DNA of 5,861 bases, taken from NCBI GenBank assembly GCA_902388545.1, contig CABMPS010000129.1, positions 1-5,861 on the forward strand, read 5' to 3'. Position 1 is the first letter of the stretch. Each line of letters opens with the position of its first letter. This document shows, piece after piece, positions 379-4,974 of this stretch. A program made the position numbers and the translations under genes. Below the pieces are notes generated by a model. That model did no database searches, was not told where the DNA came from, and worked only from the letters and a program-made list of their open reading frames with translations. Source of the DNA: an uncultured Collinsella sp. (lineage in GTDB: Bacteria > Actinomycetota > Coriobacteriia > Coriobacteriales > Coriobacteriaceae).

Positions 379-1059
379 ATGGAGGCTTACAAGCAAGAGT
401 TTATCAAGTTCATGGTCGAGTCCGACGTTCTTAAGTTCGGCAGCTTTACGCTCAAGAGCGGCCGTCAGTCCCCGTTCTTTATGAACGCCGGCGCTTACGT
501 GACGGGCTACCAGCTCAAGAAGCTGGGCGAGTATTACGCCCAGGCCATTCACGATAACTTTGGCGACGACTTTGACGTGCTGTTTGGACCGGCCTACAAG
601 GGCATTCCGCTGGCCGTCGTGACCGCCATTGCCTACCACGAGCTGTACGGTAAGGAGGTCAAGTACTGCTGCGACCGCAAGGAGGCCAAGGACCACGGTG
701 CCGACAAGGGCAACCTGCTGGGCTATGAGCCCCAAGATGGCGACCGCGTGGTGATGGTCGAGGACGTGACCACCTCCGGCAAGTCCATCGACGAGACCTA
801 TCCCAAGGTTATGGCTGCGGCCGATGTCGAGATTAAGGGCCTTATCGTCTCGCTCAACCGCATGGAGGTCGGCAAGGGCGGTGTGACCACCGCACAGAAG
901 GAGATTGAGGCCAAGTACGGTTTCCCCGTCGCGAGCATTGTTTCTATGGCCGAGGTCGTCGAGACCCTCTACAATCACGAGATCGACGGCAAGGTTGTCA
1001 TCGACGACGAGCTCAAGACCGCCATCGACGCCTACTACGAGCAGTACGGAGTTCGTTAG
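379..1059 (+). CDS. pyrE: Orotate phosphoribosyltransferase
   Basis: This cytosolic enzyme converts orotate and PRPP to orotidine 5'-monophosphate in de novo pyrimidine synthesis. The product is 226 residues, usual for the family. The diagnostic PRPP-binding loop VVMVEDVTTSGKS lies at about residues 122-134, with the acidic pair E-D before the TTSGKS turn. The N-terminal part carries the substrate-side FTLKSGRQSPFFMNAG stretch (about 22-37) and the GPAYKGIPLA segment (about 71-80), both typical of PyrE. The ATG at 379 is chosen because GAGAGGAG (366-373) sits just upstream and the family alignment begins there; the frame stays open to an ATG at 322, but that extension has no homologous look. 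No other pyr gene is adjacent, so it appears to be transcribed alone. The folded repeat begins at its stop codon. Confidence 0.97.
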   Translation: MEAYKQEFIKFMVESDVLKFGSFTLKSGRQSPFFMNAGAYVTGYQLKKLGEYYAQAIHDNFGDDFDVLFGPAYKGIPLAVVTAIAYHELYGKEVKYCCDRKEAKDHGADKGNLLGYEPQDGDRVVMVEDVTTSGKSIDETYPKVMAAADVEIKGLIVSLNRMEVGKGGVTTAQKEIEAKYGFPVASIVSMAEVVETLYNHEIDGKVVIDDELKTAIDAYYEQYGVR

Positions 1060-1230
1060 TTACGCGGTTTTACCAAACCGCGGAACGGGCCGACGCTGCG
1101 CGCCGCCCAGGGCGACAATTTGTCATTCAAAAGGCAAGGCATGACCAGAAGGTCTATGCCTTGCCTTTTTCATGCCAACTTGTTCGCCCTGGACGTCGCT
1201 CGCTGTCCGTCCTCTACATGCGGCGTTGTC
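1058..1230 (+). repeat. Large folded intergenic repeat, copy 1
   Basis: This element is homologous to 4702-4888. Shared blocks, in order: AGTTACGCGGT (1058-1068); a hairpin with TACC loop (arms 1063-1070 and 1075-1082); CGACGCTGC (1091-1099); a long outer stem (1107-1118 with 1180-1192, one bulged T); a middle stem (1120-1126 with 1172-1178, one mismatch); an apical stem ending in GACC-AGAA-GGTC (1129-1169); then CGCTGTCCGTCCTCTAC (1201-1217) and a TGCGNCGTTG-type tail. Stem sequences differ from copy 2 while pairing is kept. It starts inside the pyrE stop codon, so it forms that mRNA's 3' end. Function is unknown: it may be a mobile palindromic element, a 3' UTR structure or a small RNA. Confidence 0.8.
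1129..1170 (+). terminator. Intrinsic terminator of pyrE
   Basis: Perfect 14-base arms, AAAAGGCAAGGCAT (1129-1142) and its complement (1156-1169), are capped by a second small stem, GACC-AGAA-GGTC (1143-1154), with one bulged T. The downstream arm ends in TTTTT. It is the apical part of the larger repeat, so the terminator appears to be supplied by the repeat. The A-run at the 5' arm could let it work in both directions. Confidence 0.85.
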
Positions 1231-4140: not shown

Positions 4141-4698
4141 ATGAAGAAGAAGCTGCTGCTTGCGCCCCTGATGGCTGTTCTGGTCGCGTGCGTGGTTGTG
4201 CTTTCCGGCTGCGGAGGTCCTTCGGTTGAGGAGCTCATCACCGAGGATCTTACGACGCAGTTTGACGAGGTCAAGAACGGCGGCGACGACTTCCTCGCCG
4301 GCCTGGAAGAGGCCTCGGGCGACGAGTTCGAGCAGCTGGGCATCGATCCCAAGGAGTACGCCAAGAGCTATCTCGAGGGTTTTGACTACAAGATCGGCGA
4401 TGTGACGGTCGACGAGGACAAGGGCACCGCGACTGCCGATGTCACCATTACCTGCAAGTCCATGAACAAGATCGTTGAAGATTTCGCTACCCAGTATCAG
4501 GAGAAGATCGCGGCGCTCGATACGATGCCTTCCGAGGACGACCTGTACAAGATGGCCGGCCAGGTCATGGTCGACGTGACCAAGGCCGCTAAGACCAAGG
4601 ACACCAAGGTTACCTTCAAGTACACCGCCAATGACGATGGCGAGTGGTCTGCTGACGATTCCGCAACCACCGAGATGATGAATGCAATGATGAACTAG
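4141..4698 (+). CDS. Small secreted lipoprotein of unknown function
   Basis: The product is 185 residues. It has a textbook lipoprotein signal: a KKK N-terminus, a hydrophobic stretch (5-20) and the lipobox L21-S22-G23-C24, so the mature protein should be lipid-anchored at Cys24 on the outer face of the membrane. The mature part is very acidic and predicted soluble: a helical N-terminal half (PSVEELITEDLTTQFDEVKN), then strand-like alternation (DYKIGDVTVDEDKGTATADV at 82-101) and a C-terminal segment ending with a Met/Asn-rich tail. This layout resembles the small alpha+beta lipoproteins grouped under several DUF names in Gram-positive gut bacteria; I cannot assign a family with certainty. 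The start at 4141 follows TTGGGAGGAA at normal spacing; an ATG at 4117 lacks such a site and would spoil the signal peptide. It has no operon partner. Export and lipidation are firm; function is unknown. Confidence 0.88.
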   Translation: MKKKLLLAPLMAVLVACVVVLSGCGGPSVEELITEDLTTQFDEVKNGGDDFLAGLEEASGDEFEQLGIDPKEYAKSYLEGFDYKIGDVTVDEDKGTATADVTITCKSMNKIVEDFATQYQEKIAALDTMPSEDDLYKMAGQVMVDVTKAAKTKDTKVTFKYTANDDGEWSADDSATTEMMNAMMN

Positions 4699-4701
4699 GG
4701 G

Positions 4702-4888
4702 AGTTACGCGGTAGTTCGTTGCGGCGTTTTACCAAACGCCGCAACTGCTCGACGCTGCAAACGCCCCTAAGCGGCAATCTGACGTTCAATTTCAAGGGCG
4801 CGACCAGAAGGTCAGCGCCCTTTCATTTCACGTCACCTTGCTCGCTTAGGGGCGTTTTCGCTGTCCGTCCTCTACCTGCGACGTTGCC
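4702..4888 (+). repeat. Large folded intergenic repeat, copy 2
   Basis: This is homologous to 1058-1230 in the same order: AGTTACGCGGT (4702-4712); a TACC-loop hairpin with perfect 12-base arms (4718-4729 and 4734-4745); CGACGCTGC (4750-4758); an outer stem of about 19 pairs (4759-4777 with 4838-4857, one extra base); a middle stem TGACGT/ACGTCA (4780-4785 with 4830-4835); the apical stem (4794-4822) with the same GACC-AGAA-GGTC tip; then CGCTGTCCGTCCTCTAC (4859-4875) and the tail. The stems are longer than in copy 1 and have different sequence but intact pairing. It starts three bases after the lipoprotein stop codon and lies between convergent genes. Confidence 0.8.
4794..4828 (+). terminator. 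Terminator-like apical hairpin behind the lipoprotein gene
   Basis: AAGGGCGC-GACC (4794-4805) pairs with GGTC-A-GCGCCCTT (4810-4822), with one bulged A, over an AGAA loop. It is followed by TTT-CA-TTT, a broken T-run, so termination may be weaker than at the matching site behind pyrE. Confidence 0.65.
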
Positions 4889-4899
4889 ATTGTTTGACC

Positions 4900-4926
4900 A
4901 GTCGTTTAAGAACGTCCCCAACGACT
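4900..4926. repeat. Short hairpin repeat, inverted copy
   Basis: AGTCGTT (4900-4906) pairs with AACGACT (4920-4926) around TAAGAACGTCCCC. The loop is the reverse complement of the 1254-1266 loop apart from one base, so the unit is flipped relative to copy 1 although the neighbouring large repeat is not. Confidence 0.65.
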
Positions 4927-4974
4927 ACTTTCCGCGCAACGGCATTGCGGCGGCTGGGTTGGGCAGCGCTGGCG

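Follow-up and report, generated by a model that had tools for sequence, protein, structure and literature searches.

A dispersed family of structured, REP-like repeats abuts stop codons in Coriobacteriia

Introduction

What are the two large intergenic elements that recur, with the same nested fold, within one stretch of Collinsella DNA, and is that fold held by selection? The stretch (hereafter the window) comprises the 5,861 nucleotides of contig CABMPS010000129.1 from an uncultured Collinsella sp. A preliminary description, made from its letters alone, noted that the stems differed between the two copies while pairing stayed intact and the loops were fixed. It read this as the hallmark of selection on structure and suggested an undescribed repeat, RNA or protein-binding fold. 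We examined these claims by covariance-model searches of related genomes, by comparing copies at orthologous sites and by mapping copies relative to the genes around them.

Results

Two copies of a composite element in the window

Open reading frames and Pfam matches gave the gene order pyrE, HTH regulator, RpiR-type regulator, PTS EIIA, lipoprotein-like gene and HAD hydrolase. The pyrE gene (orotate phosphoribosyltransferase; 379–1059, forward strand; PF00156; start codon judged by eye) ends in TAG at 1057–1059. Its product is 98–100% identical to PyrE of the 21 closest genus genomes, which marks the window as chromosomal DNA of Collinsella aerofaciens type, and its ortholog in genome G154 matched TIGR00336 (pyrE) above the cut-off. 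The gene 5' of the second element (4141–4698, forward strand, stop codon TAG at 4696–4698), read as lipoprotein-like from the N-terminus of its open frame, had no Pfam match at 1e-5 and has homologs in 42 of 43 genus genomes.

All parts of both copies lie on the forward strand. Copy 1 opens with a palindrome at the stop codon (H1, 1059–1086, loop TACC at 1071–1074), defined by sequence, by predicted fold and as helix 1 of the covariation tests; the G of the pyrE stop codon (1059) is its first stem base. The conserved block CGACGCTGC (1091–1099) follows, then the core (1100–1199), delimited by fold and covariation as a long bulged rod with the tip GACCAGAAGGTC at 1143–1154, and finally the TCGCTG block with the tail TCGCTGTCCGTCCTCTACATGCGGCGTTG (1200–1228), a direct repeat shared with copy 2. 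Copy 2 sits 3' of the stop codon of the lipoprotein-like gene. By inverted repeat and fold, its complete H1 (4718–4745) has 12-bp arms and a TACC loop, and its core (4759–4857) has a perfect 15-bp outer stem (4759–4773 with 4843–4857) and the same tip GACCAGAAGGTC at 4802–4813; the block CGACGCTGC (4750–4758), placed by sequence and column conservation, lies between them, and the shared TCGCTG block and tail (4858–4886) close the copy. The predicted folds were far more stable than those of shuffled sequences: −90.4 kcal/mol for copy 1 (1056–1235; z −8.0) and −100.4 kcal/mol for copy 2 (4699–4893; z −10.1), with 0 of 200 shuffles as low in either case.

The preliminary description was thus borne out as to the places of the two copies, their nested fold and their first hairpin, which has eight continuous pairs around TACC in copy 1 and 12 in copy 2. 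Some details needed adjustment: the stem of copy 1 runs from the stop-codon G at 1059, and copy 2 is preceded by an extra H1, a truncated relic of an older one (GTTACGCGGT, 4703–4712) recognised by sequence 4 nt past the stop codon; the same nesting occurs at L180.

Several other repeats lie in the window. A smaller repeat, GTCATTGGGGA..TTCTTAAATGACTA, follows both elements (1245–1278 and 4895–4928), and several of the genus's RAYT-like loci (L294, L298, L302) have similar GGGGAC repeats. A hairpin with 26-bp arms (AATGAGCGTGGATAATCTCCC.., 2077–2146) is also found 3' of pyrE in other strains, for example at L206, L209 and L212. The HTH gene is flanked by a near-identical direct repeat, AGCGTCCAAAAATCCGCGCTCGT (1284–1306 and 2152–2174), and positions 1–30 hold a short hairpin, CCACAAAGGGGACAGGCACCTTTGTGG, of a small GGGGACAGG repeat type.

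Family size and taxonomic range

Searched for as an exact string, the 17-base tail occurred in 82 stretches. Collinsella contigs contained 37 of these, of which 36 entered the first copy comparison; the remaining stretches were single matches in unrelated organisms. The first covariance model was built from 27 distinct copies, leaving out tail-only matches (L017 and the second in L073) and matches less than 160 bases from the start of their locus. Copy numbers were then counted in the genomes of relatives. The related-genome search that the preliminary description had proposed returned far more than two copies: 16 Collinsella genomes gave 12–49 matches each at E ≤ 0.01, antisense matches to the rod included (150 candidates scored per genome). 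G002 yielded 51 matches at E ≤ 1 and G154 36 at E ≤ 0.001, again with 150 candidates scored; we accepted 30 and 27 of them, respectively, as sense copies, and the others were mostly antisense or weak partial matches.

A broader covariance model matched 105 of 296 Coriobacteriia genomes at E ≤ 1e-6 (nine candidates scored per genome). At the same threshold, 11 of 296 genomes matched in a sample of the phylum, whose listing names 31 of the 296; all 11 were members of the class already drawn in the class search. A5 comprised 43 hand-picked sources. The element family is Coriobacteriia-wide and dispersed, and in this sample it was restricted to the class.

None of the 4227 Rfam families searched matched the element at gathering score in the window or in 20 loci; the earlier suggestion of a repeat is supported, for a family with a kept fold. 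Copy 1 also drew matches from microRNA-type long-hairpin families, which at a best E of 0.0003 stayed well below the gathering score and were taken as chance. The Collinsella-1 RNA motif (RF01700), listed in a table of PMC2864571 as a candidate structured RNA of Actinobacteria and the human gut, did not appear when copy 1 was searched at E ≤ 10. A TPP riboswitch, barely above its gathering score, was found off any element at L336 (3019–3148). Copy 1 had no match in the phage set; copy 2 had one match in the plasmid set, a 900-kb Collinsella aerofaciens replicon, at eight places. Open-licence texts, without supplements, on repeats or RNA motifs of Collinsella, Coriobacteri- and Eggerthella yielded no description of the element, although one may exist elsewhere.

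Anatomy and conserved parts

The element is about 170 nt long and consists, 5' to 3', of H1, a (Y)CGACGCTGC block, the core, TCGCTG and the tail. H1 is palindromic, spans about 28 nt and has a short loop. The core measures about 100 nt and is predicted to fold as a single rod with patterned bulges and an NNAA-type apical loop; the tail, of about 25 nt, comes in several kinds. In 400 kb of G154 scanned for H1 by motif and hairpin, all four sense H1 palindromes found were parts of elements.

We scored conservation in 82 sense copies, joined at 90% identity into 48 core clusters; one antisense row of L273 was left out. Across the clusters, GACGCTGC was kept at 92–100% per column, TCGCTG at 96–100% and a tandem TC opposite TC in the rod at 94–100%, and most stem positions were variable. 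A greater overall conservation of unpaired than of paired core positions was rejected (p 0.93); it is particular mismatches that are kept. The loops, the GACC-AGAA-GGTC tip and the CGCTGTCCGTCCTCTAC tail, which had been described as fixed, are common to both window copies but constant in close copies only; over the 82 sense copies they vary.

Some of these parts also occur in other arrangements. The tail (CGCTGAC..CTACCTGC or CGCTGTCC..) recurs 3' of elements, singly or in short tandem runs, at L150, L151, L159, L017 and L073. At L130 and L131, and also at L181, L211 and L216, a shared stretch past the core (TCGCTCATATGACCCAATCCGCTGTCAAGAGCC..) is another dispersed unit that replaces the usual tail.

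Stop codons at the first base of the element

The stop codon of the upstream gene abuts or overlaps the first base of the element (within −5 to +1) in 77 of 101 copies, one of them counted twice. In G002 and G154, where genes were called by codon scoring, the stop codon had its last base in this range for 21 of 30 and 22 of 27 copies, respectively (43 of 57). A set of 24 copies from other genomes, drawn from 24 of 30 loci, gave 19 when open frames were counted by hand; ten of these 24 belong to further genomes of the genus set, and 14 lie beyond it. In seven genomes outside the genus set, open frames gave 15 of 20; these copies were picked by hand from the phylum search, and L166/L337 is also in the 24-copy set. 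An antisense control of the same 20 copies gave 0 of 20. By comparison, 4.2% of 3'-flank intergenic bases lie that close to a stop codon, and 1.3% would be expected for a random intergenic base and strand.

In 53 of the 57 copies of G002 and G154 the upstream gene is in the sense orientation. TAG, TAA and TGA are all used, which means that the stop codon is not simply supplied by the element. Upstream genes in G154 include prfA, lysS, rpoC, pyrE, hspR, queA, a DAHP synthase gene and a W/Y-type tRNA synthetase gene, and about twenty genes in each of the two genomes counted carry an element directly 3' of the stop codon. Among them is the one that encodes peptide chain release factor 1, in both G154 (L257) and G002 (L116).

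Fourteen of the 57 copies fall outside −5 to +1 of a sense stop codon. At L137, L145 and L263 an older relic lies between stop codon and element. For misfits such as L117/L256, L119, L129, L138, L268 and L278, we found no such relic.

Downstream context

A convergent gene faces 28 of the 57 copies, and where the downstream neighbour is co-directional it lies at least 100 nt away in 22 of 24 cases. Collinsella copies thus usually close a transcription unit. Outside the genus set, ten of 20 copies (in G025, G046, G052 and G070) have a co-directional start codon at most 41 nt downstream, counted when accompanied by a Shine-Dalgarno-like run and an open frame of at least 100 codons. The mirror-image antisense scan found a close start at three of 20, and the 24-copy set had one at 3 of 24 only.

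A simple scan, run without a shuffled control, found a terminator-like inner hairpin with a T-rich stretch within 38 of the 57 copies; the T-run is not conserved among copies. At L125 a good terminator lies some 20–40 nt further on in both strains, and at L140/L277 a clear, stronger terminator stands downstream of the element. Because some copies precede a terminator and ten of the 20 outside-genus copies precede a close start, at which a plain terminator would be polar, the element is probably not simply a terminator, and termination may be part of its role. What these settings share is the stop codon.

Apparent core exchange, relics and an empty site

G002 and G154 have 20 clear orthologous loci, with flanks 91–98% identical, at which the two copies are dependent observations. 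Orthologous cores were less than 0.75 identical at nine of the 20 loci, and the ortholog was the best core match at only seven. At 11 of 20, a core from another locus matched better than the ortholog by at least 0.1; without two nested cases, nine of 18 pairs were better matched by a core elsewhere. H1 and core can change separately: identities were 0.95 for H1 and 0.58 for the core at L116/L257, and 0.76 and 0.99, respectively, at L118/L258. Of 30 pyrE loci we read 28 (all but G175 and G037), a further 11 genomes being without a locus; across strains, pyrE has cores of at least three families.

In the first nested case, L130 in G002 is intact, whereas L145, at the same gene in G154, has only the 5' half up to the tip and, beyond it, an intact element that belongs to another family. 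The same pattern occurs with the strains reversed at L267 (G154, intact) and L137 (G002, nested), where the relic again ends at the tip. Further relics are found at L076, L263, L180 and window copy 2, and the cores at L186 and L276 are hybrids of the 5' half of one core and the 3' half of another. At L273 the tip is inverted and one arm exactly reverse-complements the other, a state that suggests template switching, which according to a passage of PMC8794818 is able to create, mend and maintain hairpins.

The preliminary description had also proposed looking for empty sites, and one was seen. At L124, judged by eye, G154 lacks the element, as an ancestral state or after a deletion, and the stop codons of two convergent genes overlap, where G002 carries a copy; at L125, G154 retains H1 and tail without a core. 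The eight more distant genus genomes whose pyrE ends were inspected have no element there, and some of the distant genomes, for example G170 and G164, have an ordinary hairpin and T-run 3' of pyrE.

Covariation among copies

Changes on both sides of a pair were seen in 22 of 55 pairs among 27 close copies, in 42 of 55 among 44 chosen copies and in 47 of 55 in an alignment of 83 rows, one of them an antisense row of L273. The many-copy test that had been proposed therefore upheld the stems. In the 83 rows 93.1% of cells were paired, against 34–44% with slid partners, and covariation exceeded both shuffles and slid controls; these counts take no account of relatedness, and the structure of the model guided the fitting of the larger alignments. 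A basal stem closing the core (GACGCTGC with GCGGCGTT) was modelled and found unsupported, with double changes at none of eight pairs and about 80% of cells pairing.

Relatedness, core exchange and template switching also produce such covariation, and much of what is seen here is accounted for by exchange together with arm copying. Given the core exchange, the hybrids, the arm copying and the lack of a G-U excess in the core, the covariation does not prove selection here. Counted without the antisense row of L273, G-U and A-C cells are equally frequent in the core (57 versus 58), so there is no sign there of selection on the sense RNA strand, and a DNA-level role would look alike; G-U is in excess in H1 (24 versus 7) and in the basal stem (135 versus 45). 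Covarying stems with conserved loops, once read as the hallmark of selection, are thus not one by themselves at these loci, where a foreign core fits better at 11 of 20 orthologous sites. The kept TC/TC mismatch and the kept blocks are a better sign of selection, and the anchoring at stop codons across the class also argues for it.

Discussion

Among known systems, the E. coli REP and BIME repeats resemble the element in being intergenic palindromes in many copies, mostly 3' of genes and often near the stop codon. A passage of PMC3733652 gives REPs as 20–40 bp with an unpaired GTAG or CGTC tag, and adds that GTAG REPs often supply a TAG stop. The element is composite, about 170 bp long and mostly tag-less: H1 alone is about 28 bp, GTAG stands beside the stem in eight of 54 copies (three of the 57 were unscored), and the CGTC REP families are described with stems of 8–9 bp, unlike those found here. 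The many copies do lie mostly downstream of coding regions, with a stop codon within a few nucleotides in about three-quarters of them; the 77 of 101 copies within −5 to +1, one counted twice, are inside the 15 nt used for stop-codon REPs. By analogy the element may work as REPs may, but it falls outside their definition by size and tag.

Palindromic repeats also spread within genomes as REPINs with RAYT genes, so we looked for the linked transposase that the preliminary description had raised. Genes matching PF01797 occur in 37 of 43 genus genomes. None of ten RAYT-like loci had an element match, so no RAYT gene among them is flanked by the element, and one of 18 loci with a PF01797 gene did (L286). 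Mobilisation by RAYT as a direct link, tested through PF01797, was rejected. Five PF01797-less genus genomes in the search sample (G064, G080, G164, G191 and G248) are not among the 80 element-matching genomes (nine candidates scored per genome); the association is weak and confounded by kinship, and several genomes with PF01797 are likewise without a match. The copy at L286 (about 1203–1356) lies near an IS200-like transposase gene.

ERIC, BOX and Correia/NEMIS are transcribed intergenic repeats of 100–200 bp, modular and with kept folds. They may share these traits with the element but belong to other phyla, and neither anchoring at stop codons nor core exchange at orthologous sites is known as a feature of theirs.

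The family, its positions, the co-variation of its arms and the different cores at orthologous sites are established, and the RNA fold is predicted. From these we propose, with moderate confidence, a REP-like mRNA 3'-end structure that ties translation termination to transcript fate and whose modular hairpins seem to be exchanged between copies. While a ribosome occupied the stop codon, the 5' arm of H1 would be covered, so that H1 would fold only once the ribosome had left. Together with the rigid rod, folded H1 would then block 3'-to-5' exonucleases as well as ribosomes that follow or re-initiate, and the gene would be insulated from whatever is downstream. A passage of PMC12306157 cites reports that E. 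coli REPs at most 15 nt from stop codons stall ribosomes, and that deleting REPs from mRNA 3' ends shortens half-life. During replication, rods would break or switch template at their tips and be repaired from other copies; such events would leave behind exchanged and hybrid cores, nested 5' relics ending at the tip, and perfected arms. A bolder version, which we hold only tentatively, is a class-wide RNA device in which the ribosome would read H1 at the stop, the rod would set decay or insulation of the cistron, and cores would circulate as cassettes through tip breakage and repair.

Anchoring at stop codons could stem from the way copies spread and not from function. The main rival to an RNA 3'-end structure is a DNA-level repeat with no RNA role, non-autonomous or spread by recombination. 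Template switching and gene conversion would maintain its hairpins, and its adjacency to stop codons would result from the process of insertion or conversion or from the sites at which insertions are least harmful. We consider it rather unlikely, although core exchange, hybrids, nested relics and the copied arm all fit it, as do the empty site in G154, the absence of a G-U over A-C excess in the core and the capacity of template switching to create and maintain hairpins (a passage of PMC8794818). Yet arm copying would erase mismatches, and TC/TC, GACGCTGC and TCGCTG are kept in the 48 core clusters; copies are also anchored a few nucleotides from stop codons both inside and outside the genus. 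In a narrow search (ten RAYT-like loci, the phage set and the plasmid set), we found no mobilising gene.

That the copies are terminator cassettes, in which the inner hairpin and a T-rich bulge end transcripts and which replaced native intrinsic terminators, seems to us improbable. The terminator-like signal in 38 of 57 copies (from the scan without a shuffled control) and the convergent gene at 28 of 57 are what such cassettes would show, and distant genomes that lack the element (G170, G164) have ordinary terminators 3' of pyrE. But the T-run is unconserved, stronger terminators lie beyond L125 and L140/L277, ten of 20 outside-genus copies precede a close co-directional start against three of 20 antisense, and a terminator needs neither a stop-codon hairpin nor a TC/TC mismatch. 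Least probable by far is a recombination site in folded single-stranded DNA, attC-like or of the kind used by HUH transposases. A fold kept as sequence changes, kept extrahelical bases, parts exchanged between loci and, in some genomes, a position between a stop codon and the next gene would suit it. However, the integron core-site consensus is a GTTRRRY/RYYYAAC pair, of which H1, judged by eye, has none; 17 of 18 PF01797 loci have no element match, and only eight of 54 copies carry a GTAG tag.

The element thus represents a large structured repeat family of common gut bacteria, with no Rfam match and no description in the literature searched. Its strong covariation, largely explicable by core exchange and arm copying, calls for caution in covariance-based RNA discovery. 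Orthologous genes with an empty site, a core-less or nested element or an exchanged core provide a natural set of stop-codon hairpins for testing structures at stop codons. We favour reading this as a new REP-like repeat family and likely an mRNA 3'-end structure tied to translation termination.
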